Of a DNA stretch of 46,560 nucleotides, positions 9,392 through 41,356 are shown in pieces (position 1 is the stretch's first letter; every line of letters begins with the position of its first letter). This DNA comes from Rhizobacter sp. (lineage in GTDB: Bacteria > Pseudomonadota > Gammaproteobacteria > Burkholderiales > Burkholderiaceae_C), in NCBI GenBank assembly GCA_025361845.1, contig JANYJL010000355.1, forward strand, positions 1 through 46,560, in the 5' to 3' direction. Made by a program: the position numbers and the translations under genes. The notes under the pieces are model-generated. The model searched no databases, was not told where the DNA came from, and was given only the letters and a program-made list of their open reading frames with translations.

Positions 9392-12148
9392 TCACTGCGC
9401 GCGCCAAGCCGAGTCGGAACGCAGGTACACCGCCGCTGTGCCTGCGGGCAGGCTCGTCGGCAACGGCACGGCGCGGCCGCTCAGGTCGGTCACGGTGCAG
9501 CCGGCGGGCCAGCCGAGCGTCGGGCAGTCGACCGTGGCGGCGGTCAGCGGACTGGCGTACGCATACGACACCCACTCCGGCACTTTCGCGAGCGTGTAGC
9601 CGAACACCTGGCGCAGCGAGACGTTGTCGAAGGCCACCTGTGTGCCGGCCGCGGCGCCGAGGGTCAGGTAGGCGGATTCGGATGAGCTGGCGGTGAAGTA
9701 CGTTTCCTGGCCGAGCACGCTGCCGGAGATGCCCTTCGACGCGCTGGTGCTGATGCGCGACGCCATGAAGGTGTCGTGCGGAAGCGCGGCACGGCCGATG
9801 CCGGGGCGACTGATCGTTCCGTCATTCGTGAACGCGGCCAAGTACGACAGGTAGTAGAGGCCGCCGGCGGCCATGTTGAATGGTGGGCTGTTGATGCTGT
9901 CGCTCACGCTGCCCGAAGCCATGATCGCGCAGGTCGCCGTGCAACCTGGGTGGGGACCAGCGACGATCGCGCCTCGCGGCGTGGCCGGGGCCGTGTAGGC
10001 GAACCACGTGCCGAGACCTGCATCGAAGCCACCTTGCGGAATCAGGTTGGGTCCCATATTCAATTGGCTTGTCGCGTACCGTGGCGTGGAGGCATTGACG
10101 CTGTCCAGCGGATTGCTGCGAATCCAGTCTTGCGCGGTCAGCAATGCTGCGGTGCCATTGCCGCGAACATCGATCGAAGGCACGGACGTACCGTTCGGCA
10201 GCACGAATTCGTTGTTCGTGAAGTAGTTCTTGCCGGCGCCGATGGCGGCGCTTCCGTGCAACGTATGCCAGAACATCACTGCGGGTGGCGCACTCGCCGT
10301 GGGCAGCGTCGGGAAGGTTCCGGACGAGGTGCCAGGCGACACCCATTGGTTGAAGCGGAAGACGTTGTTCGTCATGTAGTCCGCATCGGTATGGTCCATC
10401 GTGGCGAACAATGACGCCTTGCTGGCAAGCGCTACGCGGTTGTATTCCACGGTGATATTCGACGCGTTGTGCACCGTGATGCCCATGCCCGTGCCGACGA
10501 CCAAGTTGTTCCGCAGCGTAGCGCCGTTGGTGAACTCGTCGAGGTAGATGCCGGCAGCCCAGTCAGACGCGCCACCGACCGAGCCTTCGGCATTGCCGAG
10601 AACGCGGATGATCGTGTTGGCTTCGAGCAGCGACGCATGGTTGACCAAATTCTTGCTGCCGTTCCAGGTCATCATCCCGGCGCAGTCGGAAAAACGCAGG
10701 CAAGCATCCTCGACGAGATTGTTCATGACTCGCGTACCCCCAGTCCCCGAGAACCGGATGCCCGCCTGTGCCGAGCGCCTGATGGTGTTCTTCTCGGCGA
10801 AACCGGACGGGCCGATCACGATCGCGGCCTGGGCGTTTCCGGCGTTCGGTGGCATGCCCGTGTCGCTGAAGACGTTGCTCGACAACGTGATGTTCGAGAC
10901 ACTGCTCGCTTCGATGGCGTTCAATCCATTGCGCGAAAAGCTGCTGTTGCGGACCGTGGTGCCAGCCGCGCTCGGAAGGCTGGCACTGCTCGACGCCAGG
11001 CGCAGGCCGCGTGTCACGTTGTCGTCCACAGCAACGGTGTCGATCACGGCGTTCGGCGTGTCGACCAGCAACAGGCCGTCCGCCTTCGCACGCGTGAACG
11101 CCAGGTAGCGCACTTGCAGCCCGCTGCGCGAGCGCAGTTGGAGCCCGATGTCGCGGACCGAGCCTTCGACCTTCGAGGTGTTGAGGTTGAGTTGAGCCGC
11201 CGCGTCGGAGGGCCACAGGTACAGCATCCCCTTGGCCGTGTCGTGAAAGAACTGTCCGGCGCTGTTGAGCATCCAGAGCTTGTCTTGCAGGATGTAGCCG
11301 TCACCGCCTTCGATGCCGTAGGCGGTGGGCGCACCCAGGGTCAGGTTGCCTGCAGCGGTCGCGGCGGTCACCGCGCGCTGTTCCATGAGCCACGGCTCTG
11401 TTTTCACCAAGACGGTGGCGCCCACCAGGTCTTGAGTTGCGACCGCGGCCAAGTCGGTACTCGACACGGCGAGCACCGACGACGACTTGACCATGTCCGC
11501 ACGGGCCAGCGCGTATTCCTTGCCGATGCCGCCATGGTTGGGCCATTGCGCTGTGCGTTGCGGGATGCCGTTGACGAACAGGCGCGCAATCTTCGGCGTT
11601 AGCAGTGGCACGGGACGTTGCCAGATCGAACCCACTTTGATCCAGCCGGTAGAGAAGTCATCGGCCCCCGTGACGGTGGCTTTGGCTGTCGCGCAAGCGC
11701 CATAGCCCGATACGACGGCCCCGTCGGCCAACTGCGTGCCATTCAGGGTCACCGACTCGCGCCATGTTGCCCCGCAGTGCAGGTAGATGCCCTGCCCCGA
11801 GGACAGGCGGGCGGCCACCAACTTGCCCAGCGTTTTCCACGGCAACGCTTGCGTCCCCGGGTTGCTGTCGTTCCCGAGTGCCGAATCGACATAGACGCCA
11901 GGGCCGCCGGGTATGTCTGCGACGGCTGCGGTGACTGCAGCAGCGGCGCTGCCACTGCCGCCCCTGACCGCCAGATCCTGCGCCAAGCCGGGCGGGGCAT
12001 CCGCGGTCGTGGTTGTGGTCTGGGCAGGACCTTCCGCGTTGGTGGCGTCGGTGCTCGTGTCGTTGGCTCCTCCGCAGGCGGCCAGCAGCGCGGAGACAAG
12101 AAGCGCGAGCGCCTTGCCGAGGGGAGGGGACTGCCGGGTGTTGTTCAT
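9392..12148 (-). CDS. Large parallel beta-helix lipoprotein
   Basis: A 918-residue exported lipoprotein. The signal peptide ends with the lipobox LLAAC, so Cys25 should be lipidated. After a Thr/Ala-rich linker, GPGVYVDSALGNDSNPGTQ and LPWKTLGKL form the start typical of pectate-lyase-like right-handed beta-helix proteins. Repeats rich in NNL, NTI and NVF follow to about residue 600. From about 690 to 850, a galactose-binding/CBM-like jelly-roll is likely (NLIPQGGFDAGLGTWFAYT through VAFDNVSLRQV). The Cys pairs near the C-terminus may form disulfides. Such proteins act as polysaccharide lyases, epimerases or surface adhesins; catalytic residues cannot be assigned by eye. It is probably periplasmic or outer-membrane bound, acting on the EPS. 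A second beta-helix occurs as a fusion at 15750-17711. Confidence 0.82.
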   Translation of the reverse strand: MNNTRQSPPLGKALALLVSALLAACGGANDTSTDATNAEGPAQTTTTTADAPPGLAQDLAVRGGSGSAAAAVTAAVADIPGGPGVYVDSALGNDSNPGTQALPWKTLGKLVAARLSSGQGIYLHCGATWRESVTLNGTQLADGAVVSGYGACATAKATVTGADDFSTGWIKVGSIWQRPVPLLTPKIARLFVNGIPQRTAQWPNHGGIGKEYALARADMVKSSSVLAVSSTDLAAVATQDLVGATVLVKTEPWLMEQRAVTAATAAGNLTLGAPTAYGIEGGDGYILQDKLWMLNSAGQFFHDTAKGMLYLWPSDAAAQLNLNTSKVEGSVRDIGLQLRSRSGLQVRYLAFTRAKADGLLLVDTPNAVIDTVAVDDNVTRGLRLASSSASLPSAAGTTVRNSSFSRNGLNAIEASSVSNITLSSNVFSDTGMPPNAGNAQAAIVIGPSGFAEKNTIRRSAQAGIRFSGTGGTRVMNNLVEDACLRFSDCAGMMTWNGSKNLVNHASLLEANTIIRVLGNAEGSVGGASDWAAGIYLDEFTNGATLRNNLVVGTGMGITVHNASNITVEYNRVALASKASLFATMDHTDADYMTNNVFRFNQWVSPGTSSGTFPTLPTASAPPAVMFWHTLHGSAAIGAGKNYFTNNEFVLPNGTSVPSIDVRGNGTAALLTAQDWIRSNPLDSVNASTPRYATSQLNMGPNLIPQGGFDAGLGTWFAYTAPATPRGAIVAGPHPGCTATCAIMASGSVSDSINSPPFNMAAGGLYYLSYLAAFTNDGTISRPGIGRAALPHDTFMASRISTSASKGISGSVLGQETYFTASSSESAYLTLGAAAGTQVAFDNVSLRQVFGYTLAKVPEWVSYAYASPLTAATVDCPTLGWPAGCTVTDLSGRAVPLPTSLPAGTAAVYLRSDSAWRAQ

Positions 12149-15749: not shown

Positions 15750-17711
15750 TCATTCGCAGTCGCGATAGGCTTCTTCGAAGATGGACGGCGTGAGGTGGGC
15801 TTGAACCCCAAATCTGTTGTTCTCCTCGATCAGCTTGTCGAATCTACGCGCCTTGTCGTGCAGCAAACCGTTCCCTGGTTGGCCATCATGGTTGAACGCC
15901 CAGAGCCGCCCGGTGCCGGCGTTATTTCGGAACACGATGTTCGTGCCGTGCGCGAAGGCGGCGGCGACAAAAGGCCAGCCGGTCATCGACGCCATGTCGT
16001 CACCGAGGTTCTCGACGCGATTTCTCTCGACCAAGATGTTGGAGCCTCCCGCGACGCCAATGCCTGTCCCGTTGACTCGAACAATCGTGTTGTCGTGCGC
16101 CCAGATCCAGCCCCCGGCGTCGAAGTCTCCCTTGGCGCCGCCCCCTGCCTTGCTGTCGCCGAGTTGCATTCCCGATCCGGATTCCGTGCCGCCTATCGTT
16201 GCACCACGGATCCGGTTGTAGGCGATCTCTATCGGATCGACCTCGGTGCCACTCGACGAGTAAATATTGATGTGGTCGCCGACGTAGTTCGGGCCAGCAA
16301 CTGGCGTGTCGATCCGGCCGTCATAGATGTTGCAGGTGATCTTCGAGCGGCCCGTTCCGCCACTCACATTGCTCAACTGCGCCATCTGACCGGCCCATGC
16401 CGGGCCGCGGATGTTGAAGACGAAATTGCGGTCGAAGACAATTGGGTGGTTCGCGCCTGCGGCGCCGAGGGCGCTGGAGGCATCGTGGATGACATTGCGC
16501 TGAACGGTGACGTCAGACGCGCCCGGCAACACAAAAACGCCGTAGTCCCGGATCGCCCGTGACTTCGCCCCGCACGGCCCGATCTCGCTGTTCCGGACGA
16601 TCACGCCGTGCACGCCCTGGGCCACCACGATGCACGGCCCGGAGTCGTTGGTCACGTGGACGTTCTCGATCACCTGGCCTGTGACCGCATTGATGCGACC
16701 GACCACCGGCAGTCCGCGGAGATCGGTGGGGCCGGGTGCGGGTTGCGCACGACCCGCAGAGGGAATCATCGAACCTGCCAATGCCGCAGCCACTAGCACG
16801 CAAAGGCTGGCCTGGCTCTTGGCGCTCGTCGCGTTGCTGGCGCGCTTGACGGCATCGTCGGTGACGTAGGGATTCCTGGGCAGCCGGTGGATCACGAAAC
16901 CAGCGCGCTTCAGTGCGTCCAGGCGGGCACCGGACGGTGTTCCCTTGAACACCACCACGCAGCCCAGCCCATAACCCAGCAGACCACATTTCGCGAGCAC
17001 GTCCTGGACCCGAATCCCGAGCTTCGTCATGACGCTTGCGAACCCGAACTTCGTCAACTTCTGTTCGACGAAGCTGCGGTGGAAAAAGTCGTTGATGCCA
17101 CGCCAGGCGACGACCTCACCGCCCATCGACAACATCAGCTTCTCGAGTTCCCGCAGCTTGAGGCGGTACAGGTAGTTGCCCGAGGGCTCGAACTCCTGGC
17201 TCACGTTGCCGCGCAGTGCCCGCTTGATCAGGCGCTTCATGCCGTCGAGCAAACGAACCTGATCGAGCGGTTCGATCATCACCACGGCCTGCCGGGCAAC
17301 GCGCAGCATCTCGTAAAGTGCGATCGGCGGGCGCGGGAAGTGGTGGTACGCCTCTTTGCAGAGAACGTAGTCGAACGCATCGGCTGCGGCGCTTATGGAC
17401 TCCGCATTTTCGGCTCGGTAGTCCTTGATGTAGCCGAGCTCCGCGGCTTTCTTGAGGCGCTCGGAGGTGAGGCTCGTAGCCGTCACTGTGATGCCATGGG
17501 CGTGCAGGTAGGCGGCGTCTGAACCGTAGCGCCCATCACCCACGGTCATCCAGGTGGCAGCGCGATCGTTTCCCCAGAGCACCTGCGTCAGGTCGAGCAT
17601 GCGGGTGTGGCGCCAGTTGTCGATCGACTCCGGGTTGCGGTAACGGGCAGGCATCTTCATCGCGTCTTCCGACGCTGCCTGAAGGTCGTATCGGTGCTGG
17701 ACGGATTCCAT
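15750..17711 (-). CDS. Fusion: SAM-dependent methyltransferase + exported right-handed beta-helix domain
   Basis: A 653-residue open frame with two unrelated halves. Residues about 1-285 are a class I methyltransferase (WMTVGDGRYGSDAAYLHAHG as motif I, then FDYVLCKEAYHHFPRPPIAL). About residues 300-321 are hydrophobic (SLCVLVAAALAGSMIPSAGRA) after a basic stretch and look like a Sec signal peptide with a cleavage site at GRA/QP. Residues 322-653 are a beta-helix with repeats such as IENVHVTND, VIVRNSEIG, VTVQRNVIHD and ILVERNRVEN. The start at 17711 has GAGGTG six bases upstream; the stop of the aldo/keto reductase lies 25 bases before. Topologically, the methyltransferase would stay cytosolic while the helix is exported, either tethered or cut off. 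No in-frame ATG, GTG or TTG with a ribosome site precedes the signal-like segment, so this is not two genes as the sequence stands. Confidence 0.8.
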   Translation of the reverse strand: MESVQHRYDLQAASEDAMKMPARYRNPESIDNWRHTRMLDLTQVLWGNDRAATWMTVGDGRYGSDAAYLHAHGITVTATSLTSERLKKAAELGYIKDYRAENAESISAAADAFDYVLCKEAYHHFPRPPIALYEMLRVARQAVVMIEPLDQVRLLDGMKRLIKRALRGNVSQEFEPSGNYLYRLKLRELEKLMLSMGGEVVAWRGINDFFHRSFVEQKLTKFGFASVMTKLGIRVQDVLAKCGLLGYGLGCVVVFKGTPSGARLDALKRAGFVIHRLPRNPYVTDDAVKRASNATSAKSQASLCVLVAAALAGSMIPSAGRAQPAPGPTDLRGLPVVGRINAVTGQVIENVHVTNDSGPCIVVAQGVHGVIVRNSEIGPCGAKSRAIRDYGVFVLPGASDVTVQRNVIHDASSALGAAGANHPIVFDRNFVFNIRGPAWAGQMAQLSNVSGGTGRSKITCNIYDGRIDTPVAGPNYVGDHINIYSSSGTEVDPIEIAYNRIRGATIGGTESGSGMQLGDSKAGGGAKGDFDAGGWIWAHDNTIVRVNGTGIGVAGGSNILVERNRVENLGDDMASMTGWPFVAAAFAHGTNIVFRNNAGTGRLWAFNHDGQPGNGLLHDKARRFDKLIEENNRFGVQAHLTPSIFEEAYRDCE

Positions 17712-17736
17712 GGGGTTCACCTCGGGAAACATTCGG

Positions 17737-18729
17737 TCAGCCGGGTGACGGGTGCAGAGTCTGCGCCACCCGGTCAAGGCAATCGTTCAACGCAGCGGCC
17801 AGCGGGGCCAGGTCGGTGCGGCGGGCCAGTGCAACGAAGGCCCTGGCGCGTTCGGGTTTCGAAGTCGACACGAGCACCATGCCGGCTTGTCGCATGCCCA
17901 GCGCCGCGGCCAGAAGCAGTTCGCCGGCGCGCTGTGGGTCCGCACACGCTGCCTGTAGTTCTCGCCGGTGTTCGTGCAACTCGACTTCACGGCGGAACGC
18001 CGGGTCGTCGAGCCAGGGCAGGCCGCTGCGTATGCATCGGTGCGTGACCAGGGTCCCGCCCGATGCCGGCAATGCAGCGGTCCGGGCGCCCCAGTAATGG
18101 TTGACCTGCAAGACCTGGAAGCGGTGCGGATGCAGCGCTGCGATCTGCACCGTGTGTTCGACCGTCGTACCGGTGCCCAGGGCATGGACCAGGCCCTGCT
18201 TGGCCATGCGATCCAGGGATTCGAGCAACTCCGGGGCGAGGTCGTGCGGGCTGACCTCATGCAGCAACAGCGCGTCCAGCGCATCGCAGCGCAGGCGGCG
18301 CAGCGATTCCGCCACCGACGCTTCGATCTGGGCCGGGCCGAAGCGTCCCGCGGGCGCCGTCATCGCCGCAGACTTGCGCGACGCGAGGCGCCAGACCGAG
18401 GGCGCCACATTCTTCAAGGGCGCGGCCAGCCGGCGCAGATGCCGCAGCGCGCCGCCGGCCACCGGGTGCCCGATGCCGGCCTTCGAGACGATGCTCACCT
18501 GCGAGCGCACCCCGGCGAGCACCGTGGCCAATGCCGCCTCGGCTTCGCCATGCCCGTAGGCGGGGGCCACATCGAAGTGCCGGAACCCGGCTTCGTAGGC
18601 CGCCTCGATGACCCGGCACTTGGCAGCGAACGCCTGAACGTCGCCCAGCGACGCACAGCCGAAACCCAGCCGAATGCCCCGCGGCGAACCGGAGACAAGC
18701 TCCCCTGTCTCAAGCGGACGCAGTTGCAT
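17737..18729 (-). CDS. Aldo/keto reductase
   Basis: A 330-residue NAD(P)H-dependent oxidoreductase of the (beta/alpha)8 AKR fold. The N-terminus has LGFGCASLGD. The catalytic tetrad is visible as Asp53 and Tyr58 in FDVAPAYGHGEAEAAL, Lys83 in VSIVSKAGI, and His157 in LLLHEVSP. The C-terminal cofactor-binding region contains MVLVSTSKPERARAF. The start at 18729 overlaps the end of the GMC oxidoreductase gene by 20 bases, so the two are probably translated together. A GMC oxidase and an AKR side by side suggest an oxidation/reduction pair that could epimerise or deoxygenate a sugar through a keto intermediate (inference). The substrate is unknown. Confidence 0.9.
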   Translation of the reverse strand: MQLRPLETGELVSGSPRGIRLGFGCASLGDVQAFAAKCRVIEAAYEAGFRHFDVAPAYGHGEAEAALATVLAGVRSQVSIVSKAGIGHPVAGGALRHLRRLAAPLKNVAPSVWRLASRKSAAMTAPAGRFGPAQIEASVAESLRRLRCDALDALLLHEVSPHDLAPELLESLDRMAKQGLVHALGTGTTVEHTVQIAALHPHRFQVLQVNHYWGARTAALPASGGTLVTHRCIRSGLPWLDDPAFRREVELHEHRRELQAACADPQRAGELLLAAALGMRQAGMVLVSTSKPERARAFVALARRTDLAPLAAALNDCLDRVAQTLHPSPG

Positions 18730-25555: not shown

Positions 25556-26251
25556 TCAGCTCACGCCGGCCAGCTGGCGGCGCAGGGGCAGAGGGAGCGC
25601 CCCGATCAGGTCAGAGACAAAGCTGTCTTGCAGCGTGAATTCGGCCTGGCTGTCGGCTCCGATGCTCGAGACACGAAACAGCACGCCGTCGGCGACGATG
25701 CCGTCCAGGCCGTAGCGCAACTCGGCGAGCCGGCGTTTCATGCCGCCCAGGGTGGCTTGATCGCCCAGCGTGGTCCAGTAGGTCAGGGGCTCGGGCCGAT
25801 TCGAGCCGAGCTTGGTTTCAAGGCGCTTCACCGGGATCGCACCGCCGGGCACCGCGAGCATGCCCACGCGCGACGACTTCAGCTCGAAGCCTTGTGCCGG
25901 GTAGCACACCTCCGGGTAGTGCATGGCGTTGCCGTCGCGCTGCCGCTGGTCTTCGCCGTAGACGATCGACAGCATGATGCGTCGGCCGGCGGTATTGACG
26001 TACGTGCGGGTGAGCTGCTGGGTGTAGAGCCGGTTCAACAGCGCTTCAGTTTCGGGGTTGACGATGCTGGCGTAGCGGACCGGGTCGATCCGCCAGTCGC
26101 CGAAGGCCGAGGGCACGTCGGCCTTCAGGTCCAGCCGCGTGGCGCGCAATTGCGCCAGGCGCTGGGTGGGTGTGAGCCACTGGCCTGCGCCGGCCCCGGC
26201 GGCCATCAGCAAGGCGGCCAGGGCCGCGCGGCGCGTCGTTCGGTTGGTCAT
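25556..26251 (-). CDS. epsI: Exosortase B-associated protein EpsI
   Basis: A 231-residue protein of the EpsI/DUF3485 family. The first about 23 residues are hydrophobic after an Arg-rich start (MTNRTTRRAALAALLMAAGAG), a signal anchor or signal peptide. Hallmarks are FGDWRIDP, TYVNTAGRRIMLSIVYGEDQ and the family signature MHYPEVCYPAQGF with its single Cys. EpsI is found either fused to or next to exosortases; its biochemical role is not settled. Here it is a separate gene overlapping xrtB by ATGA, as in the methanolan-type EPS loci. It is probably periplasmic and membrane-tethered. Confidence 0.93.
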   Translation of the reverse strand: MTNRTTRRAALAALLMAAGAGAGQWLTPTQRLAQLRATRLDLKADVPSAFGDWRIDPVRYASIVNPETEALLNRLYTQQLTRTYVNTAGRRIMLSIVYGEDQRQRDGNAMHYPEVCYPAQGFELKSSRVGMLAVPGGAIPVKRLETKLGSNRPEPLTYWTTLGDQATLGGMKRRLAELRYGLDGIVADGVLFRVSSIGADSQAEFTLQDSFVSDLIGALPLPLRRQLAGVS

Positions 26252-27168
26252 GCGGCGACGTTCCGGCGGCGCCCCCAGACTTGCTGCGCCAGGCGCAGCA
26301 GGCCGTCGATCCAGATCGTCAGCGCGAGCGCGCTCATGAACAGCACCATGCCTGCGAAGCCGTGCAGGAAGCCCTGACCCGCTTCGTCACCGAAGTACAG
26401 CGTGATGAGGCACAGCACGACGACGCGGATGACGTTCGCGCAGAAGCTGATCGGCACGATCAGGATCGCCAGCATGATGTTGCGGAAGGGGGAGCTGTGT
26501 CGAACGACGTTCAGGTACAGCAGGCCCAGCGCTTCGAGCACGAACAGCGTGTGCAGCCCGGCGCAGGCGTCGGCCACCATCAACTGGTACTGGCCGACTT
26601 GCAGCATCACGCCCGTGCGGCTGACCGGGTAACCGGCCGCGTGCATCAGGTTCTCGCTGGCCCAGGACACGGCGGCTTTCATCGGCTGGGTCATGCTGTC
26701 GACCAGTGCCCCCGGCAGCGGGATCATGAAGAGCATGAAGAACAGCGCGAACTTGATGGCGAACAGCTGCCGCGGCCCGCGCAGCAGCAGCACGCTGCCG
26801 GTCACCAGCACGATGAGCGAGCCCATCTCGAACAGCCAGATGCCTTGCGAGCGACCCAGCGCATACATCGCACTGCCCAACACCAGCAGCGGCCAGCCGA
26901 CCGCAGGCAGGGGCTGCGAGCTTTGCGTGCTGTCGAGCGCATGCCAGTCGCGCCACACCAGCCAGCAGGTGACCGCCAGCACGATGGGGCCATGGCCTTG
27001 CTGGTCGCCCGCCCACAACGTTCGCGACAGCTCGTAGAAAGTCGGGCCGAACATCGTGGCCAGTCCGAGCAGGATCAGCAGCCAGGCGCCATGCGCTTCG
27101 AGCAGGCGACGCGCCGAGACAGGTGCCTTTTCCACGGGTTGAGGGTCGGGTGGTGAGGCCGGCGTCAA
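26248..27168 (-). CDS. xrtB: Exosortase B (PEP-CTERM processing transpeptidase)
   Basis: A 306-residue polytopic protein with about eight membrane helices. The exosortase active-site triad is visible: Cys202 in VADACAGLHTLF, Arg248 in FCANVIRVV, and His269 in FLHGFAGMV. Exosortases cut at the PEP motif and probably transfer PEP-CTERM proteins to another molecule. Its position directly after epsG and before epsI is the arrangement of the XrtB/EpsH type. The start is taken as TTG at 27168, which forms a TTGA overlap with the epsG stop; a GTG at 27132 is the alternative. The PEP-CTERM gene at 3700-4221 is the substrate visible in this window. Confidence 0.94.
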   Translation of the reverse strand: MTPASPPDPQPVEKAPVSARRLLEAHGAWLLILLGLATMFGPTFYELSRTLWAGDQQGHGPIVLAVTCWLVWRDWHALDSTQSSQPLPAVGWPLLVLGSAMYALGRSQGIWLFEMGSLIVLVTGSVLLLRGPRQLFAIKFALFFMLFMIPLPGALVDSMTQPMKAAVSWASENLMHAAGYPVSRTGVMLQVGQYQLMVADACAGLHTLFVLEALGLLYLNVVRHSSPFRNIMLAILIVPISFCANVIRVVVLCLITLYFGDEAGQGFLHGFAGMVLFMSALALTIWIDGLLRLAQQVWGRRRNVAA

Positions 27169-28070
27169 AACTCGTTGACGATGACGCCCGCCACCTTGGC
27201 CGTGCTGGCGCCCAGGCTCGCCACCAGGTCTTGCAGCGAGCCGACGCGGCTGTTGTGCTGGCGGGCCACCACCAGGGCGGCGCCGCAGCGCGCGGCGATC
27301 ACGGCGCAATCGCTGCCGTAGATGGCCGCGGGGGTGTCGACGACGACGTGGTCGAACTTGGCGAGCAGTTCACGCACCAGCAGGCCGAAGGCCGGGCGCT
27401 CGACCAGTTCGAGCGGGTTCGGTGGCGTGATGCCGACCGGCAGGATGAACAGGCTGGGCATGCCGTTGACCTGCTGGATCACCTTGGGTTCGGCACGCCC
27501 GCTCAGGATGCCCGAGAGTCCGGCGCCGTTGTCGATGTTGAACACCTGATGCTGGCGCGGGCCGCGCATGTCGGCATCCACCAGCAGGGTGCGGCCGCCC
27601 AGTTGGGCCAGCGTGACGGCCAGGTTGGCCGAGAAGAAGGTCTTGCCGTCGCCGCTGTCGGGGCTGACGACGGCGATGGCACGGCGCTCTTCGCGGTCGC
27701 CGAACAGCCGCATCATGATCTGGCTGCGGATGGCGCGGAAGGCTTCGGCCTGGATGCCGAAGGGCTGGTTCATCGCCACCAGTTCGGGGCTGCCCTTGCG
27801 CTGCTCTTCGGGTGCGTAGGGGTAGTGGAACTGCTGGGCCAGAGCGAACAGCACGTCGTCGGCACTGGCGAAGCCGAGCGCGATGGCCGCTTCGCCGAAA
27901 CGGATGCCTTTTTCGCGCTGGTAGTCCAGCACCTTCTCGACCTGCTCGGCGCTGAGGTTGCGTGTCTCGGCAATGATGGAGCCGATGGAGCGGTCGGCCG
28001 GGATGGCGGCCAACTCTTCGGCGTTCACGGTGCCGATGCCCATCGAGGCGGAATCTCGGAACTTGGCCAT
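27165..28070 (-). CDS. epsG: EpsG: BY-kinase-like P-loop protein with N-terminal MshEN-like domain
   Basis: A 301-residue cytosolic protein of the chain-length-determinant tyrosine kinase type. Residues about 28-80 hold two 24-residue repeats, each ending in Q (28-51 and 57-80) with a 5-residue spacer, the layout of MshEN c-di-GMP-binding domains. The P-loop ATPase half has Walker A VVSPDSGDGKTFFSANLAV (Lys143) and Walker A' TLLVDADMRG (Asp165, Asp167), with FDHVVVDTPA as the Walker B region. The usual Tyr-rich C-terminal tail of bacterial tyrosine kinases is missing; the protein ends VAGVIVNEF. It works with EpsF to control chain length. ATG at 28070 follows the epsF stop as TGATG; a GTG one codon earlier is possible. 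Confidence 0.9.
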   Translation of the reverse strand: MAKFRDSASMGIGTVNAEELAAIPADRSIGSIIAETRNLSAEQVEKVLDYQREKGIRFGEAAIALGFASADDVLFALAQQFHYPYAPEEQRKGSPELVAMNQPFGIQAEAFRAIRSQIMMRLFGDREERRAIAVVSPDSGDGKTFFSANLAVTLAQLGGRTLLVDADMRGPRQHQVFNIDNGAGLSGILSGRAEPKVIQQVNGMPSLFILPVGITPPNPLELVERPAFGLLVRELLAKFDHVVVDTPAAIYGSDCAVIAARCGAALVVARQHNSRVGSLQDLVASLGASTAKVAGVIVNEF

Positions 28071-29497
28071 CACGCGCTCCTTTGCGGGGCCGGCAGGCCG
28101 ATCACGCGCTGCTTCAGTTCCAGCGCATGGCGGCGGCCCAGGAAGCGCTTCGAGCTCGGCTTGGGCAACAGGCCCAGCACAGGCAGGCCGAGTGCGGCCA
28201 CCACGTCTTCCGGGGCGCGCACGCGGCGGTCCATCATTTCGAGCGCCAAGGCCACCCCCACCCCGAGCAGTGAGCCGACGAAGATGGCCAGGGCCGTGTT
28301 GAGCACCAACCGGGGAGAAGAGTGCGTCACCGGCGGCAGCGCCACCGACAACACGCTGGCAAAACTCTGCGTCGTTTGCGATTCGAGCGAGGTCTGGTTG
28401 AAGCGCGCCACCAGCGTCTCGAAGGTGCGCTGCGCGTTCTCCACTTCGCGGATCAGCACCTGGCCTTCATCGCGCACGGCCTTCATGCGCAGCACCTTGG
28501 CGCGTTGCTCTTCGAGGCCGCGCTGCACCTGGCCGACCCGCGCGGTGTTGATGTTGTTGCTGACGCTCACGCCACCGGTCACGCGGCCGGTTTCGGCCTC
28601 GATGCGCTTGCGCACTTCGGCGATGTTGGCCTTCAGCTCCACCACCTGCGGGTGGTTGTCGCCGAGCCGCGAAGACAGCTCCTGCAGCCGCGCTTCGCCG
28701 CGGCTCAGGTCGGCTTTCAGGCCACCGATCAGCGGGTTGTTCAACACATCCTGAATGCGGTCGGCCGCGGCGCCCTGGGCCTGCGCCTGTCGGCTGGTTG
28801 ATTCGGCCGAGATGGCTTGCAGCTGAACCAGTTGCGAGGACAGCTCGTTCAGCCGCGCCGTTTCGACGTCGAGCCGCTCGTCGGTGGCGAGGATGCCGTT
28901 GGCGCGCTGGAATGCCGACACCTTCGACTGGGCGCGTTCGAGTGCCTCGCGGGCCTCCTTGGTCTGGGTGTCGAAGAAGTTGGTGAACTGCTTGGCCGGG
29001 TCCACGCGCAGCTGCAACGTGGTCGCGATGTAGGCCTGTGCGAAGGCGTTCGCCAGTGCGGCCGCGAACTTCGGGTCGGTGGCTTTGTAAGTCACCTGAA
29101 TGACATTGCTCTCACGCGAGGGTTTCACGTCGAGCTGCTTTTGCAGCAGGGCGATCAGCCACTGTTCGACCGTGCCCTTGCCTTCGCCTTGCGTGAGCCA
29201 TTGCTCGCGAATTTGCGGGCTGTCGGCCAGCTTCAGGTCGCGGATGACTTTCTGCGTCACGCGGTCACTTTGCAGGATGTCGACCTGGGTGGCCATGAAG
29301 CTCGGCATGGCCATCGTCGGGTAGGCCATCGGCGAGACCGGGTCGGGTTTGGCGTCGATCACGATCGAGGCGGTGCCGGTGTAGCTCTTCGGCAGCAGCA
29401 GGCTGATCCCCACGGCCGCAGCCACCACCGACATGAAGACCAGCAGGGCCGCCCACTTGCGGGCGCGCAGGATGGCAATGAATTGCGAAAACGTCAT
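28070..29497 (-). CDS. epsF: EpsF: chain-length determinant protein (Wzz/PCP family)
   Basis: A 475-residue inner-membrane polysaccharide co-polymerase. TM1 is at about residues 15-35 (KWAALLVFMSVVAAAVGISLLL). The large periplasmic part is mostly alpha-helical, with long Gln/Glu/Ala/Arg-rich coiled coil from about 170 to 370. TM2 lies at about 408-430 (LVLNTALAIFVGSLLGVGVALAL), ending in a cytosolic basic tail with PVLGLLPKP. It partners with EpsG and EpsE to set polymer length and link polymerisation to export. It ends one base into the epsG start and begins 28 bases after the epsE stop. Confidence 0.94.
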   Translation of the reverse strand: MTFSQFIAILRARKWAALLVFMSVVAAAVGISLLLPKSYTGTASIVIDAKPDPVSPMAYPTMAMPSFMATQVDILQSDRVTQKVIRDLKLADSPQIREQWLTQGEGKGTVEQWLIALLQKQLDVKPSRESNVIQVTYKATDPKFAAALANAFAQAYIATTLQLRVDPAKQFTNFFDTQTKEAREALERAQSKVSAFQRANGILATDERLDVETARLNELSSQLVQLQAISAESTSRQAQAQGAAADRIQDVLNNPLIGGLKADLSRGEARLQELSSRLGDNHPQVVELKANIAEVRKRIEAETGRVTGGVSVSNNINTARVGQVQRGLEEQRAKVLRMKAVRDEGQVLIREVENAQRTFETLVARFNQTSLESQTTQSFASVLSVALPPVTHSSPRLVLNTALAIFVGSLLGVGVALALEMMDRRVRAPEDVVAALGLPVLGLLPKPSSKRFLGRRHALELKQRVIGLPAPQRSA

Positions 29498-29525: not shown

Positions 29526-30425
29526 TCAGAACAGGCTTTCGCGCACGAAGTCCACGTCGCCGTCCAGCACCTTGTCGTCCATCGCGGGTTGCAGCACCTG
29601 CACCTTGCCGTCGGCCGACTTGCGGTGCAGGCGGATGCCCTTCTCGGTGCCGCGCTGCGTGAGCCCGCCGCTGGCGGCCAGGCCTTGCAGCACCGTCATG
29701 CCGCGTTCGATGCGCAGCGCGCCGGGGCGCTGCACTTCGCCGTAGACGTAGACCAGGGGCATGCGGTCGACGAAGACCACGTCGCCATTCAGCACCACCG
29801 GGTCGTTCGCGGTGTTGCTCGCGCTGAAGAGGCCGGGCAGGTCGATCTGCACGCGCATCGGCGCGCCGTTGCGCGTGCCGGTCAGGCTGACGACATCGCT
29901 GCCGCCTTGTGCGATGCCGCCCGCCAGCGCCACCAGCTCGCTCATGCGCATGCCGGTCACTTCGATCGGGTAGCGGCCCGGCCGGTTCACGAGACCGAGC
30001 ACCGAGGCCTGGTTGCTGCGCACCTGGACCACCAGGATGCCGACCTGCGGCTGCTTCACGAACTGGCCGTTGCGCAGGCCGTCGGCAATCGCCTTTTCGG
30101 CCTGCTGCACCGACAAGCCGCCCAGCTTCACCGAGCCGAGCAGCGGGTAGCTGATGCTGCCGCCTTCGGAGACACGCGCTTCGAGCGAGAGGTCGGCGTT
30201 CTGGAACACGCTGATGCGCACCACGTCGCCGGCGCCGAGCACGTAGTCGCGCTGGGTGTCGTTGGCGGCCGGTGCGGTTGCGGCCTGCGCTTCGGCGGGG
30301 GCGGGCAGGCCGCTGCCGAGCAGTGCCAGACCGAGCATGAAACTGCCGGCCAGGCGCGGCAGGGAGGGCAGGCGCCGCAGCGCCGTGCGTGCGCTGAGCA
30401 GGATCGAAACGAGGCGTTGGGTCAT
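29526..30425 (-). CDS. epsE: EpsE: polysaccharide export protein (Wza family)
   Basis: A 299-residue exported protein. The signal peptide is long (a basic n-region with RTALRRLPSLPRL, core FMLGLALLGSGL, end AEAQA). The poly-export (PES) domain starts at RDYVLGAGDVVRISVFQNADLS. SLBB-type repeats follow (QASVLGLVNRPGRYPIEV and VYVYGEVQRPGALRIE). There is no lipobox Cys, unlike E. coli Wza, and no long C-terminal amphipathic helix; it is the short EpsE type. It forms the outer-membrane export channel or its periplasmic ring. It is the first gene of the minus-strand EPS operon. The start at 30425 is preferred because the upstream 40 residues of the longer frame are not signal-like. Confidence 0.92.
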   Translation of the reverse strand: MTQRLVSILLSARTALRRLPSLPRLAGSFMLGLALLGSGLPAPAEAQAATAPAANDTQRDYVLGAGDVVRISVFQNADLSLEARVSEGGSISYPLLGSVKLGGLSVQQAEKAIADGLRNGQFVKQPQVGILVVQVRSNQASVLGLVNRPGRYPIEVTGMRMSELVALAGGIAQGGSDVVSLTGTRNGAPMRVQIDLPGLFSASNTANDPVVLNGDVVFVDRMPLVYVYGEVQRPGALRIERGMTVLQGLAASGGLTQRGTEKGIRLHRKSADGKVQVLQPAMDDKVLDGDVDFVRESLF

Positions 30426-30460
30426 GGGCCAATCACTACCGTGTAAACCCTGGAGTATGT

Positions 30461-30476
30461 TGCAAGACACCGGCCC
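30461..30476 (-). promoter_or_regulatory. Candidate sigma-54 promoter of the epsE operon
   Basis: On the minus strand GGGCCGG-TGTC-TTGCA has GGC at -24 and TTGCA at -12 with correct spacing, but the first T and two bases of the -24 block deviate. The predicted start is near 30450, about 25 bases before the epsE ATG. TTGCAA could instead be part of a weak sigma-70 -35 box, so the class is undecided. Confidence 0.4.
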
Positions 30477-30585
30477 GGTGGCGGGGCGTGTGGCGGTCTT
30501 CGCACTCAAAAAGGGCCTCATTCGCGGGGGCGCATGGGGCCGCAAGCAGCCGAAAGGCCGAATTCTTCACGCCGGGACAAAGGGC

Positions 30586-31374
30586 CTACCGACGCCGCAG
30601 CCGGAACCAGCCGTCGCCCAGGGCGTCCGGGTGCGAGCGGCTGACGATCAGCCCGGCCTGCAGGTACAGCGCGTTCAGCAGCCGCGCCGCGCGCTCGCGG
30701 TTCAGGCCGGGCCAGCCGGCCATGTCGCGCAGGTTGGTCGGCTCGCGGCGCAGGCGCAGCACGGCGGCGAGCAGGGCGCCCTTGGCCGGCAGGCCGTCGA
30801 CGTCGAGCCCGGGCGAGAGCCGGTAGATGGCCGGGCCGCCGATTTCGGGCAGCAGACCGGTGCGCTGGCCGCGCATCGCCAGCTCCCAGAGCAGCGGGGA
30901 GAGCGGGTGATGTTCGTGTTCGTTGGCCATGAGCGTCGGGTCGGCATCGCCGGGCGGGCGGCGCACGCCGGGTTCGATGTGCATCACGCGCAGATCGGGC
31001 AGGTGCTTTTCGACCAGCTCGTTCAGGTCCATCGGGCAATGCACCAGGCGTTCCTGCGGGAACACCGTCAGCGGTACCACCCGTTCACCGCAGCGCAACT
31101 GGATGGTCAGGCACTTGGCGTGGCGCACGCAGGCGGCCACCACTTCCAGCACCTCGGAGCTGCCGCCGTCTTGCTCGAAGCGCATCAGGTCGGCCTGCAC
31201 CGAGGGGCTGAGCGAGGACATGCGCGAGCTCGGCGCGCCATCCGCAACGTCGGCGTCCATCTCGTCGAGGTAGCGGTTGTAGGCACTGGCTCGCATCAGT
31301 TCGGGTTCACCGAACGGGATGGTCGAGTCGAAGAGGTCGCCGTGCTGCATCAGGCCGGTATTTTGACGCTGCAC
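30586..31374 (-). CDS. Conserved-looking hypothetical protein upstream of epsE
   Basis: A protein of 262 residues (254 if it starts at the second ATG, 31350). I do not recognise a family. It lacks a signal peptide and membrane helices, so it is probably cytosolic. The N-terminal third is acidic (YNRYLDEMDADVADGAPSS). A central alpha/beta region contains CVRHAKCLTIQLRCGERVVPLTVFPQERLVHCP, like a small sensor or roadblock fold. The C-terminal about 80 residues (LLAAVLRLRREPTNLRDMAGWPGLNRERAARLLNALYLQAGLIV) look like a winged-helix with an Arg-rich recognition part. Its place just before the EPS operon on the same strand suggests a regulator or assembly factor of EPS; that is a guess from position. 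Base composition matches the neighbours. Confidence 0.75.
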   Translation of the reverse strand: MQRQNTGLMQHGDLFDSTIPFGEPELMRASAYNRYLDEMDADVADGAPSSRMSSLSPSVQADLMRFEQDGGSSEVLEVVAACVRHAKCLTIQLRCGERVVPLTVFPQERLVHCPMDLNELVEKHLPDLRVMHIEPGVRRPPGDADPTLMANEHEHHPLSPLLWELAMRGQRTGLLPEIGGPAIYRLSPGLDVDGLPAKGALLAAVLRLRREPTNLRDMAGWPGLNRERAARLLNALYLQAGLIVSRSHPDALGDGWFRLRRR

Positions 31375-37614: not shown

Positions 37615-37641
37615 TCAGCCGCGCAGCTGATCAGCCGCGCA
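37610..37641. repeat. Tandem 16-bp repeat spanning two convergent stop codons
   Basis: The unit GCTGATCAGCCGCGCA occurs at 37610-37625 and again at 37626-37641 without change. The palindromic TGATCA core supplies the TGA of the dehydratase gene in copy one (37612-37614) and, on the other strand, the TGA of the Wzz gene in copy two (37631-37633). GCGGCTGATCAGCCGC (37607-37622) can also form a hairpin. Confidence 0.75.
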
Positions 37642-38860
37642 GGCGCCAGGCTTTGGAGACGGCCGCCCAGGCGAGTTCGCGTTCCGGGTCGTTCGCGGCA
37701 CTGAAGGCCGTGTAGCCGCGCCGGATCGCCACCGCCACCGCGATGATCAGGGCCAGCAGGGTGCTTCCCAACACGATCATCCCGCGCGAGGGTTTGGACT
37801 TGTAGTCCGGCGGCAGCGCCACGTCCACCTGCTGAAGCACCGGGCCTTCCTTGGCCTCGTCGAGCTTGGCGATCTCGTACTGGCGGATCATGCCTTCGAG
37901 CAGTGTTTCCTGAAGCTTCAGCTCGCGCCGTGCGCGCACGTAGTCGATCGCCGCGCCGGGGATCTTGCTGACCGGCATGTCCACCGTGCTGCCGGCCGCA
38001 CCACCCCGCGAGGATTCCATGCGCGCGAGTTCGCTGCGCAGTGCGCCCAACTCGGAGGTGAGGCGCTGCACATCGGGGTTCTGCTCGGTGGCCGAACCGC
38101 GCAGCACCTTCAACTGCACCTCGCGCTCGGCGATCTGCGCGCGCACCATCGCAGCACCTGCAATGAGCGCCTCGGCCTGCTTGTCGAGCACGATGACGCC
38201 GGACTTTTCCTGCACGCGGCGCAGGTCCTGTTCGGCCTTGATGAGGTTCTCTTTCGTCTCCTTGAGCTGCTGCTCGAAGAACACGCGGCGCAACTGCGCT
38301 TCCGACACCGCCAGCCGCCCGAGCACCTTGGTGATCTCGCCGGCGTGGGCGTTCGCCAGCTCGGCGGCGAACTTCGGATCCTTGTCGTCGACCTCGACGG
38401 TGATGATGCCGGTCTTCTTGTCCGAGGCGACGCGAATGTAGGTCGGCATCGCCTTGCGCAGGCTCTCGTAGTTCTTCACCTCGTAGCGTTCCATCAGCGC
38501 AAAACGCTCGGCCAGCGAGCGCTGCACGCTGTCGCTCTTGAGCAGGGCCACGTACAGCTCATCGGGCGTCTTGCCGCCCAGCCCGCCGGCCAAGCCACCG
38601 AGCGAACCGAGGGCCGCCAGCGCCGCTGCCGAACTGCTTTGCTGCTGCGAGCCCGGCGGCAGCAAGGTGGTGCGCGCGGTGTAGATCGGGTCGCGTGTCA
38701 AAGCGAAAGCCAGTGAGGCCGCGATGGCGAGCAGGGTCACCGTTGCGATCATGCGTTTGGACTCGCCGATCCAGGTCAACAGGTCGGTCAGGCCGATGCC
38801 CGGACCCTCGTCTTCGTACTCTGCTTCGGGGGCAGCCAGGTGCTGCGTATCGATCTTCAT
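37631..38860 (-). CDS. Wzz/chain-length determinant family protein
   Basis: A 409-residue inner-membrane co-polymerase. After a cytosolic acidic start, TM1 is near residues 36-56 (MIATVTLLAIAASLAFAL) and IYTARTTLLPPGSQQQSS begins the periplasmic Wzz domain. A Gly/Ala-rich loop (LGSLGGLAGGLGGKTPDELYV) and a long coiled coil follow. TM2 is near 362-384 (GMIVLGSTLLALIIAVAVAI) after the PxxP-like LPPDYKSKPSRG. It lacks a kinase domain. It lies 10 bases after the large SLBB export gene on the same strand, making a two-gene unit separate from epsEFG. It probably serves a second surface polysaccharide whose synthesis genes are elsewhere. Confidence 0.92.
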   Translation of the reverse strand: MKIDTQHLAAPEAEYEDEGPGIGLTDLLTWIGESKRMIATVTLLAIAASLAFALTRDPIYTARTTLLPPGSQQQSSSAAALAALGSLGGLAGGLGGKTPDELYVALLKSDSVQRSLAERFALMERYEVKNYESLRKAMPTYIRVASDKKTGIITVEVDDKDPKFAAELANAHAGEITKVLGRLAVSEAQLRRVFFEQQLKETKENLIKAEQDLRRVQEKSGVIVLDKQAEALIAGAAMVRAQIAEREVQLKVLRGSATEQNPDVQRLTSELGALRSELARMESSRGGAAGSTVDMPVSKIPGAAIDYVRARRELKLQETLLEGMIRQYEIAKLDEAKEGPVLQQVDVALPPDYKSKPSRGMIVLGSTLLALIIAVAVAIRRGYTAFSAANDPERELAWAAVSKAWRLRG

Positions 38861-38870
38861 GCGAGCTGGT

Positions 38871-41258
38871 TCAGTTGCGCAGCGTCTTGATCGCCGCGGC
38901 GCCGAGGCCGAACTGCGAAAAGATCTGCGACCAGTCCTTCAGGTTGCGCACCAGGGCGCGGCCCCAGGTTTCGAAGTCGAGCTGATTGGGCACGATGAGC
39001 GCGTCGCCCGGTTCGAGCTTCTGGCTGCCGAGCTTGTTGTTGCCGAAGAATCCGCGCTGGTCACCGGCGTGAGCGACGGTGCCGTCGGCCCGCAGGATGA
39101 ACATGTTCGACGGGTCGGCCGCTTCGTCGGTGCCGGCCAGGCGCAGGTAGTCGCCCGCGGTGCGGCCCGGTTTCCAGACGAAGGCATTGCTGTTGACCAC
39201 CGCGCCGGCCACCGTCACGAAGCCCGGGCGCGAAGGCACGACGATGCGGTCGGCATGTTCCAGCGGCAGGTCGGGCAGGGCGTCGATCGTGCTGACCTGG
39301 GCATCGAGTTCGAGCGCGATGCGGCCGTTCGGCTGCAAGCGTGAAAGCCGCGCCAGTTGCGCCTGTGTGGCGGCGTTGCTGACTGCCGCGGCCGAGCTGG
39401 GCGAAGTGTCGTCGCGCCGGTTCGCCGCGTCGCGTGCGGCCTGCGTGGCCGAGAGCGATTCCAGCCGCACCATCGCCGCGGCGAGGTTCTCGCGCTGCCG
39501 CACACGCGTCTCTTCGCGGCTGAATTCAAGCCCGTACACATAGGCTTGCGGCGTGAAGCCACCGGCCCGCGTCAACAGCCCCTTGAGCGTTTCACCGGGC
39601 AGCAACTGGTACACGCCGGGCGCGCCCACTTCGCCTTCGACGGCGACCAGGCGGGTCTGCCGCGCCATCGGCACGCGCACGTCTTTCTGGCTGTAGACCG
39701 TGACGACGTCGCCGGCCTTGAGTTCGATGTTCTGCGAGGCGTCGCCCTGCAACACCGCCTTGCCGAGGTTGAAGGGGATGACCTCGGTGCTCAGGTCGGC
39801 CTCGTTGAGGCGCTCGACCACGGCGTAGTCCCAGTTCAGTTCGTCGAACAGCGCGGCCGGCGCCGTCTTGGCGCGCAGGGCAGCGGCGCGGTTCTCGGTG
39901 GCCTGGCGGTCGAGCGGGCGGCCTTGTTCGTCCAGGTCGAGGGCCTGCACCAGCAGGTTCTTGCGGCGGTAGAAGTCGGGCGAGACAAGGGCTTCCGCGT
40001 CCGGGATCAGGTCGCGGACGCGCATGCCCGGCCGCCAGGGGCTGCGCAGCGGCTGGGCCACGTGGCCCTTGAGTGTCACGGCATTGCCGAACTGAGGCGA
40101 GATCGCCAGCAGCGTCAGCAGGTCGCCGTCGCGCAGCGGCTGTTGCAGGCCGGCCGCGTCGAGCCGGAATTCCTCGACGAAACGCGCCGCCTTGGGCTGG
40201 CTGGCATCGACCCGCTCCAGCACCACGCGGTTCGGGTTCGCCAGCAGCGGCGTGCCGCCGGCATAACGCAGCAGCTCGCGCACCGGCTCCTGGGGTGTTT
40301 TCAGTTCGAAGATGGCCGGCGTGTCGAGTGCGCCGGTGAGCGCCACGCGCGCCCCGGCCGGCTGGAACACCACCACGTCGCCCGCGGCGAGCTGCATGTC
40401 TTTCGACTTGTCGCCTTGCACCAGGAACTCGTAGACGTCGAGTTCCGACACGACCTTGTTGTCGCGGCGCAGCAGCACCTTGCGCATCGAGCCATTCGGC
40501 GCCGGCCCGCCCGCCGCGACGAGGGCCGAGAGCAGGGTCGACTGGCTCGCCAGCGTGTACACCCCCGGCCGCTGCGCAGGGCCGACGACGAACACCTTGA
40601 CGGCCCGCAACTGGCCGAGTGCCACACTCAGGTTGAAGTTGGTGTAGAGCCGCCCGATCTGCGCGCGCAGGTACTTCTCCAACTCCGAGGCCTTCACGCC
40701 GACGACATTGAAGCTGCCGACCTTGGGCAGATTCAGCAGGCCGTTGCGGTCGACGGTGCTGCGGTAGTCGACATCGATCGAGCCCCAGGCGCGCAGCACG
40801 ATCTCGTCGCCCGGGCCGACGGTGTAGTCGGCCGAGACCGGCACGTTATCGACCGGGCCGAAGCTGTCGGCCGCGTCGGCAAAGAAGCTCGCGCCGAAGA
40901 TCGGCAGCAGGCGGCCGGTGGCGGCATCGACGAATTTCTGGAATTCGCTCGGCTTCGGCGGCAGCGGCTCGGGACGGCGCGGCGGTGTTTCCGGGGTGGC
41001 GGGCGGCAAGGTCGCGGTGCCCGGCAACGCCGCACCCGGCACTGTGCCCAGAGCCGGCCGGTTCACATTGCCTGCCGTGGGCGAACCTGAGGTGGTGGCG
41101 CCGCCCTGACCACTGGCGCGTGCCGGGGCCACCGGGTAACCGGGGGTGTTGAAGGTGCCGCCCGAGGCGGGCTCGTCGGCAGCCAGCGCGGGCTGCGCGC
41201 CGATCAGCAAGAACGCAGCGGCGAAGATCGATGAAGCGCGTGAGACGAAAGCTGTCAT
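38871..41258 (-). CDS. Large SLBB-domain polysaccharide export protein
   Basis: A 795-residue exported protein, much longer than Wza (about 380) and EpsE. The signal peptide is residues 1-26 (SIFAAAFLLIGAQPALA). A Pro/Thr-rich segment (about 60-105) follows. The poly-export domain begins at VSADYTVGPGDEIVLRAWGSIDVDYR (about 141-215), and several SLBB domains follow (KVFVVGPAQRPGVYTL, RVALTGALDTPAIFEL, LVAVEGEVGAPGVYQL, FVTVAGAVVNSNAFVWKPG). It is probably an outer-membrane-spanning or periplasmic channel for capsule or EPS. The start at 41258 gives a proper signal peptide; a longer reading to 41309 does not. No lipobox is present. Confidence 0.93.
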   Translation of the reverse strand: MTAFVSRASSIFAAAFLLIGAQPALAADEPASGGTFNTPGYPVAPARASGQGGATTSGSPTAGNVNRPALGTVPGAALPGTATLPPATPETPPRRPEPLPPKPSEFQKFVDAATGRLLPIFGASFFADAADSFGPVDNVPVSADYTVGPGDEIVLRAWGSIDVDYRSTVDRNGLLNLPKVGSFNVVGVKASELEKYLRAQIGRLYTNFNLSVALGQLRAVKVFVVGPAQRPGVYTLASQSTLLSALVAAGGPAPNGSMRKVLLRRDNKVVSELDVYEFLVQGDKSKDMQLAAGDVVVFQPAGARVALTGALDTPAIFELKTPQEPVRELLRYAGGTPLLANPNRVVLERVDASQPKAARFVEEFRLDAAGLQQPLRDGDLLTLLAISPQFGNAVTLKGHVAQPLRSPWRPGMRVRDLIPDAEALVSPDFYRRKNLLVQALDLDEQGRPLDRQATENRAAALRAKTAPAALFDELNWDYAVVERLNEADLSTEVIPFNLGKAVLQGDASQNIELKAGDVVTVYSQKDVRVPMARQTRLVAVEGEVGAPGVYQLLPGETLKGLLTRAGGFTPQAYVYGLEFSREETRVRQRENLAAAMVRLESLSATQAARDAANRRDDTSPSSAAAVSNAATQAQLARLSRLQPNGRIALELDAQVSTIDALPDLPLEHADRIVVPSRPGFVTVAGAVVNSNAFVWKPGRTAGDYLRLAGTDEAADPSNMFILRADGTVAHAGDQRGFFGNNKLGSQKLEPGDALIVPNQLDFETWGRALVRNLKDWSQIFSQFGLGAAAIKTLRN

Positions 41259-41356
41259 GAGGGGGCCGGCCGCGGTGTCGGACCCGACGCGGGGGCACCG
41301 CGCGGGCATGTCGTCAGACCGGTTGAAAGGTCAGCCGCCGATGGTACCGGATGGTA

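Follow-up and report, generated by a model that had tools for sequence, protein, structure and literature searches.

Does the chain-length ATPase of an exosortase-type exopolysaccharide (EPS) operon carry its own sensor of c-di-GMP? The question is raised by epsG in a 46,560-nucleotide stretch of Rhizobacter sp. DNA (the window), where an earlier sequence-only reading had recognized the layout of an MshEN-like, c-di-GMP-binding domain at the N terminus of the gene product. The reading that we favor, with a probability of about 0.7, is that the MshEN_N bundle of EpsG (residues 29-81) would bind one c-di-GMP and that EpsG would act as a two-domain regulator together with EpsF. This two-domain view is based on homology, the predicted fold, conservation of the site, the operon, and the absence of a tyrosine tail, and from these we infer binding, affinity, an allosteric route, and its direction.

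The window protein scored 276.5 bits (E 2e-82) against the EpsG model TIGR03029, covering nearly the full model and falling below its equivalog cut-off of 313.8, a cut-off that was passed in just 16 of 200 genomes of the same family. It scored above the cut-off of TIGR01007 (polysaccharide tyrosine autokinase; 124.5 bits). We call it EpsG because of its place in the operon and its clade; in the strict sense it is EpsG-like. Its closest relatives are from Rubrivivax pictus and an Aquabacterium MAG (81%). The genes lie on a single strand in the order epsE, epsF, epsG, xrtB, epsI (Table 1), and only EpsG is below the cut-off of its own family. Among 80 named loci, some of them cut by contig ends, EpsF was found in 80, EpsE in 67, XrtB in 56, and EpsI in 53, and the exact E-F-G-XrtB-I order was present in 40. 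Residue numbers are counted from the GTG start, whereas the sequence-only reading counted from the next codon (ATG), so that its residues 28-51 and 57-80 are residues 29-52 and 58-81 here.

Table 1. The eps-xrtB genes of the window and the elements of EpsG (window positions; residues of EpsG counted from GTG)
Feature	Position	Strand	Remarks
epsI, B type	25556-26251	minus	NF045609 259.4 bits, above cut-off
xrtB, exosortase B	26248-27309	minus	TIGR03113 368.5 bits, above cut-off
epsG	27165-28073	minus	302 aa from GTG; MshEN N-terminal domain and BY-kinase-like ATPase domain
Walker A region	27639-27665	minus	residues 137-145, SPDSGDGKT
E-x2-R-x2-R	27726-27746	minus	residues 110-116; conserved, on modelled helix 107-123
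MshEN-type module, 53 residues	27831-27989	minus	repeat I 29-52, spacer 53-57, repeat II 58-81
Repeat II	27831-27902	minus	residues 58-81; key positions R58 F59 G60 V74 L78 Q81
Repeat I	27918-27989	minus	residues 29-52; key positions S29 I30 G31 V45 L49 Q52
epsF, Wzz-like membrane partner	28070-29497	minus	TIGR03017 542.4 bits, above cut-off
epsE, outer-membrane polysaccharide export protein	29526-30545	minus	TIGR03028 315.2 bits, above cut-off

Other frames on the minus strand of the window were noted in passing. Just upstream of epsE, a 262-aa frame (30589-31374) has no Pfam match at E <= 1e-5 and is possibly a regulator of the operon, which is a guess. Apart from epsE and epsF, the region 37634-41309 encodes another Wzz-like protein and a large protein of the SLBB/Poly_export type. 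Inside the polysaccharide cluster, two large frames (9395-12148 and 15753-17777) have right-handed beta-helix matches, the latter with a methyltransferase match too.

The 24-5-24 layout was confirmed in the sequence, as SIGSIIAETRNLSAEQVEKVLDYQ (repeat I), the spacer REKGI, and RFGEAAIALGFASADDVLFALAQQ (repeat II). Every residue previously listed for the two repeats is correct, including Ser at position 1 and Arg at position 10 of repeat I (I-1 and I-10 hereafter); the Phe at II-2, where MshE has Leu, was absent from that list. The repeats do lie within the span first given, 27825-27995, but this span is two codons too wide on each side. The window EpsG fits 11 of 12 key positions, and 20,000 shuffles of the protein reached at most 9 of 12, in 17 shuffles, with a score that accepted hydrophobic substitutes. 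When L2, G3, L17, L21, and Q24 were checked in both repeats, again with hydrophobic substitutes allowed, the window protein had 10 of 10, and the fraction of EpsG proteins that fit was 0.70-1.00 per position. At R1, in its extended form (R/K/L), the Arg of repeat II fits and the Ser of repeat I in the window protein does not. As R1 is a feature of the binding motif rather than of the fold, the EpsG domain is filed as MshEN by its fold.

Profile searches gave a divided answer to the check that the sequence-only reading had proposed. The NCBIfam model NF053729 ('c-di-GMP_motif', 53 positions; 'cyclic di-GMP-binding domain-containing protein, MshE-related') matched residues 30-81 of the whole window protein with E 1.2e-8 and 34.6 bits, below its 38-bit cut-off, and in a six-frame search of the genome the same protein scored 38.1 bits, just above it. 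This model also matched all 64 members of an alignment of the window EpsG and 63 relatives (A2) at E <= 0.001. In contrast, the Pfam MshEN model PF05157 (90 positions) did not match the window EpsG at E <= 1 and found none of the 64 A2 proteins at E <= 0.01. PF05157 seems to lean on the region behind the repeats, because its matches on C312 and C144 of the same genome fall just behind those of NF053729. Among solved structures, a phmmer search with EpsG alone found Vibrio cholerae MshE (5htl; E 1.1e-4, residues 28-87 on 8-67), and a profile of 30 EpsG domains found Thermus thermophilus PilF (E 1.7e-10) and V. cholerae MshE (E 3.9e-8).

The predicted fold is consistent with these matches. The full-length AlphaFold2 model of EpsG (mean pLDDT 86; residues 1-26 below 50) has helices at residues 30-37, 42-55, 59-65, and 71-81, followed by the ATPase domain. 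When modelled alone and ligand-free, the domain (pLDDT 93) had as its top matches c-di-GMP-bound MshE (5htl; Foldseek probability 1.00, TMq 0.85; VIA Z 9.4, 60 residues at rmsd 1.6 A) and the likewise c-di-GMP-bound PilF GSPII-B (Z 8.2-8.9 among crystal forms), and lower matches were Xanthomonas PilB (Z 7.1), several fumarases (Z 6.5), and XpsE (Z 6.1). Since Foldseek E-values are weak for 60 residues (best 0.019) and a Z below ~13 on a helical bundle is not decisive alone, the MshEN assignment is carried by the sequence evidence. For the ATPase domain, the nearest solved structure by sequence search was CapAB (E 7.6e-29, residues 91-301), and the best Foldseek matches were two CapAB chimaeras (1.9e-18 and 2.5e-17). 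Together, sequence profiles, conservation, and predicted fold make a good case that the chain-length ATPase of this XrtB EPS operon has an MshEN-type domain.

Conservation was analyzed in 191 EpsG proteins reduced to 170 at 90% identity, of which 165 are gap-free in the domain and none has an insertion within residues 28-82. The motif is retained across these orthologues, as the sequence-only reading had required. In repeat I, Gly is found at residue 31 in 167/168 and Gln at residue 52 in 154/170 (a residue other than Gln at I-24 in 16/170), and I-2 is hydrophobic in 168/168. In repeat II, the conserved residues are R58 (139/170), F59 (166/170), G60 (167/170), L78 (164/170), and Q81 (168/170). 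Other positions of repeat I vary: I-1 is Ser in 106 of 165 proteins, followed by Pro (12), Arg (10), Thr (8), Ala (7), Leu (6), and Lys (6), with R/K/L in 22; I-10 is Gly in 74 and Arg in 54 of 169; and I-17 is Val in 85, Ala in 42, Ile in 26, and Leu in 5 of 169. Conservation is higher at the 12 contact positions than at the remaining 41 of the domain (Mann-Whitney p 2.5e-4 in the 170 EpsG, an optimistic value, as the sequences are related and kinship was left uncorrected).

By analogy with MshE, these residues would form a site in which guanine 2 lies between R58 and the I30/V74/L78 cluster and guanine 1 lies on F59/V45/L49, with Ser29 replacing the usual Arg. The backbone amides of G31-S32 and G60-E61 would read the Hoogsteen edges, and Q52 and Q81 would hold ribose and phosphate. 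In MshE, two Gln hold ribose and phosphate, amides at two Gly read the guanine edges, and the isolated MshEN_N binds with 0.35 uM (PMC5013675). Binding of c-di-GMP by EpsG is likely, with a chance of about three in four and an affinity that we guess to be low micromolar.

By the same analogy, Ser29 is the weak point of the site. Ser29 and Phe59 would face one guanine, because Arg9 and Leu39 of MshE both touch Gua1 (PMC5013675), and Phe59 may partly make up for Ser29. The published extended consensus at position 1 is R/K/L, with Ser outside it (PMC11731258). That Arg is dispensable in PilF GSPII-B is seen from its Lys and Leu at position 1 and its KD of 6 nM, and GSPII-C has Pro at position 1 of repeat II yet binds c-di-GMP (PMC11731258). 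Changes of Arg9, Asp12, or Gln32 in MshE seemingly caused at most a fivefold loss in earlier work cited in PMC5013675, and Ile for Leu at positions 17 and 21 of PilF GSPII-A cost 2.4-fold (PMC12002112). At the start of repeat II of an engineered GSPII-A, Arg to Ser removed measurable binding, in a background already weakened by Ala for Gly (19 uM; PMC12002112). A further idea, that Phe at II-2 is compensated by a small residue at I-17, was rejected as just a difference between families (Phe with Val, Ala, or Ile in EpsG; mostly Leu with Leu in other MshEN). No coupling of II-2 and I-17 is shown, because the one row outside EpsG in which II-2 is Phe carries Leu at I-17.

An alternative that we consider unlikely is that the bundle is a retained MshEN fold that has lost c-di-GMP binding and serves as a docking or oligomerization module, for instance for EpsF. 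The N-domain of XpsE binds XpsL. Such a role would agree with Ser being the commonest residue at I-1, with the Xanthomonas PilB bound to PilZ that shares the fold (the Z 7.1 match; PDB titles), and with PilF GSPII-A, a near-consensus domain that fails to bind. Two blocks to binding are reported for GSPII-A, one being an additional, capped turn of helix 1 and the other contacts with the C-terminal subdomain (PMC12002112); neither block is seen in EpsG, where the modelled helix 1 begins at residue 30 and the ATPase domain replaces the C-terminal subdomain. The conservation of the site argues against lost binding. As a negative control, 30 type IVa PilB proteins, which share the layout, retained a mean of 3.7 of 12 key residues, compared with 10.4 of 12 in 165 EpsG; one PilB row with five stops inside the match (L323) aligned badly, was scored 0, and is still counted in the 30. 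In these PilB proteins, both Gln24 are at 0% and Gly3 at 0-3%, whereas the same positions are near-invariant in EpsG (93-99%), and by conservation both Gln rank in the top three polar positions of the EpsG domain. The 41 'MshEN' comparison rows (the gap-free ones of 70) were picked by the c-di-GMP profile, so they score high by construction and are not independent support. GspE (TIGR02533; 30 loci) had been tried as a negative control and was dropped: the frames looked, by eye, to begin at the C-terminal subdomain without the four-helix part, several loci yielded the wrong frame, and type IVa PilB was used in place of GspE.

It is much less likely still that the ligand of the EpsG site is a different cyclic dinucleotide (cGAMP or c-di-AMP, for example). 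Base preference could be shifted by the changes on the guanine-1 side (Ser29, Phe59), and MshEN binds cGAMP weakly (KD 3.3e-4 M); against this, MshEN does not bind c-di-AMP (PMC5013675), and the guanine-selecting amides (Gly3 and the next residue) are kept in both halves of EpsG (G31 and G60, counts above). That a helical stretch resembles the repeats by chance has a negligible probability; the lack of a Pfam MshEN match and the frequency of helical bundles might be cited for it, but it is refuted by the E-values of the EpsG-domain profile against PilF and MshE and of phmmer against MshE, by NF053729 in every member of A2, by the shuffles, and by the conserved, insertion-free layout.

In favor of c-di-GMP binding by EpsG, the reading that we prefer, the nucleotide is very likely made in this genome, which has 33 places with GGDEF matches, a few of which are pieces of one frame. 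Against it, no GGDEF or EAL match was found in 26 frames of the window (EpsG and 20 others searched by Pfam, five neighbors by NCBIfam only). NF053729 matched at five places in the genome: a 576-aa frame (80.8 bits), two sites in an 861-aa frame, a second EpsG on C385, and the window EpsG. The 861-aa frame (G000:C144:37703-38041) carries MshEN-type modules twice in succession and is also matched by Pfam MshEN. The second epsG (G000:C385:29400-30218; L091:4401-5219) encodes a protein 36% identical to the window EpsG, with an NF053729 score of 42.1 bits, a canonical RLG start in repeat I, and adjoining EpsE, EpsF, XrtB, and EpsI matches; it offers an internal comparison for the Ser29 question.

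The sequence-only reading had called EpsG chain-length kinase-like; this label is right, but 'kinase' itself needs care, as EpsG is without the tyrosine tail. BY-kinases have a tyrosine-rich C-terminal tail, the phosphorylation of which breaks the octamer (PMC12220298). The last 35 residues of the window EpsG, which ends VNEF, contain no Tyr. Tails were counted in the 130 EpsG with their own stop that remained when 59 bare-match fetches and one frame running off its locus (L124) were removed from 190. There was no Tyr in the last 35 residues of 97 of these, one in 28, two in 5, and three or more in none, with the reservation that one of the 130 extends 110 residues beyond the usual end, so its last 35 are not a comparable tail. 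Of the same 130, 106 terminate two residues past the residue aligned to N300. In comparison, XrtA-type kinases have 3-11 Tyr in the tail (30/30) and Wzc-type kinases 4-10 (18/19). Because this tail is absent, we call EpsG BY-kinase-like rather than a canonical BY-kinase.

The ATPase domain has changes of its own. BY-kinase motifs are Walker A GX5GKS/T, A' with four hydrophobic residues and DXDXR, and B with four hydrophobic residues and DX2P (PMC12220298). In the window protein these sites are in place, though not to the letter (SPDSGDGKT has Ser instead of the first Gly, TLLVDADMR has Thr instead of the first hydrophobic residue, and DTPA has Ala instead of Pro). At residue 144, the Walker A lysine, 89 of 170 EpsG have Lys, 64 have Arg, and 17 have another residue, and this sequence variation suggests that some members of the family hydrolyze ATP differently or not at all. 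Other positions of the domain are conserved (D166 in 169/170, D246 in 165/170), as is E-x2-R-x2-R (E110 167/170, R113 167/170, R116 169/170), the helix of which is the one that forms the ring interface of known BY-kinases.

The MshEN domain was found in 188 of 190 EpsG ORFs, with a profile built partly from them and a sampling that favored full-length EpsG; one second frame (L156), at a locus end and without an N-terminal part, was excluded. It was found in none of 30 XrtA-type kinase loci, which were fetched with flanks and among which L379, at least, is truncated by the start of its contig; the same test of Wzc-type kinases is void, as those loci start at the kinase part. A quick tree of 52 EpsG, 30 XrtA-type, and 20 Wzc-type sequences has a branch (SH-aLRT 99) that sets EpsG apart, together with the single tail-less 'Wzc-type' sequence, itself on a long branch (L339). 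The contrast of tail and sensor counts as a single evolutionary event rather than several. That the sensor strictly replaces the tail was rejected as a rule: no MshEN match at E <= 10 was obtained for the tail-less relatives L383 (the same as L339), L384, and L386, and of two epsG copies a few kb apart in one locus (L385; G180:C1:740000-748500), one has an intact MshEN and the other has no match. Tail loss marks the EpsG clade and the sensor is present in nearly all that were sampled, and the two need not coincide.

Based on these observations, a mechanism can be proposed. A short linker would join the MshEN_N bundle to the BY-kinase-like ATPase domain, which would work with the membrane co-polymerase EpsF. 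Binding of c-di-GMP would rearrange the bundle, and residues 82-106 would pass the change to the E-x2-R-x2-R helix (107-123). The shift of this helix would change how EpsG, on EpsF, assembles into a ring or turns over ATP and, as a result, would affect EPS polymerization. High c-di-GMP would most likely turn polymerization on, as for NfrB. More tentatively, in the EpsG clade a c-di-GMP sensor may have replaced the phosphorylated tail of Wzc, CapB, and XrtA-type kinases as the ring switch, with Phe59 stacking on guanine 1; the co-polymerase ring would then open and close in response to c-di-GMP instead of tyrosine autophosphorylation.

If this were true, a Wzx/Wzy-type exopolysaccharide machine would be directly c-di-GMP-gated at the chain-length step, and Phe59 on guanine 1 in place of the missing Arg would be a new stacking arrangement. 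Direct control of exopolysaccharides by c-di-GMP has been described for the synthase-type glycosyltransferases BcsA (PMC12220298) and NfrB (PMC8669469). A sensor on the co-polymerase ATPase would place such control in the exosortase EPS operons found in Burkholderiales and related bacteria. In Rubrivivax gelatinosus, the same aggregating mutant was reverted by insertions in a GGDEF gene and in a large polysaccharide cluster that includes another kinase, epsB (PMC3684757); this cluster may differ from the EpsG operon found there (L127).

The idea of a c-di-GMP sensor on EpsG is not new, because Wang et al. (2016) list a Methylobacillus protein and the NCBIfam model finds the family; what is new is that EpsG lacks the tyrosine tail and often has Arg for the Walker A Lys. 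The EpsG of Methylobacillus sp. 12S (methanolan), around which TIGR03029 was presumably built, is by name of the same family as the window EpsG. Wang et al. placed exopolysaccharide biosynthesis of Methylobacillus sp. among MshEN proteins, citing the methanolan paper, and the name EpsG has no occurrence in the main text (PMC5013675); their entry is probably EpsG. In the open-licence PMC literature, we found no experimental link of EpsG to c-di-GMP and none between the sensor and the missing tail.

Comparison with known systems shows what EpsG shares and where it departs. With V. cholerae MshE (5htl) it shares the 24-5-24 layout, four helices, both Gly3 and Gln24, and the hydrophobic clusters, at 35-36% identity over 58-60 residues. 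It differs at I-1 (Ser instead of Arg), II-2 (Phe instead of Leu), and I-17 (Val, Ala, or Ile instead of Leu), in lacking the MshEN_C subdomain, and in the BY-kinase-like domain that is fused in place of a secretion ATPase. Like EpsG, PilF GSPII-B and GSPII-C do not have Arg at position 1 throughout (Lys and Leu in B; Pro in repeat II of C), although PilF is a pilus ATPase and its binding domains have no Ser there (PMC11731258). The CapAB and Wzc BY-kinases (3bfv, 3la6) have the ATPase fold in common with EpsG, in which the tyrosine tail is absent and the Walker A Lys is often Arg. In Escherichia coli NfrB, a glycosyltransferase, MshEN is C-terminal, whereas in EpsG, a co-polymerase ATPase, it is N-terminal (PMC8669469). 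By analogy, NfrB is the nearest precedent for the mechanism that we propose for EpsG.
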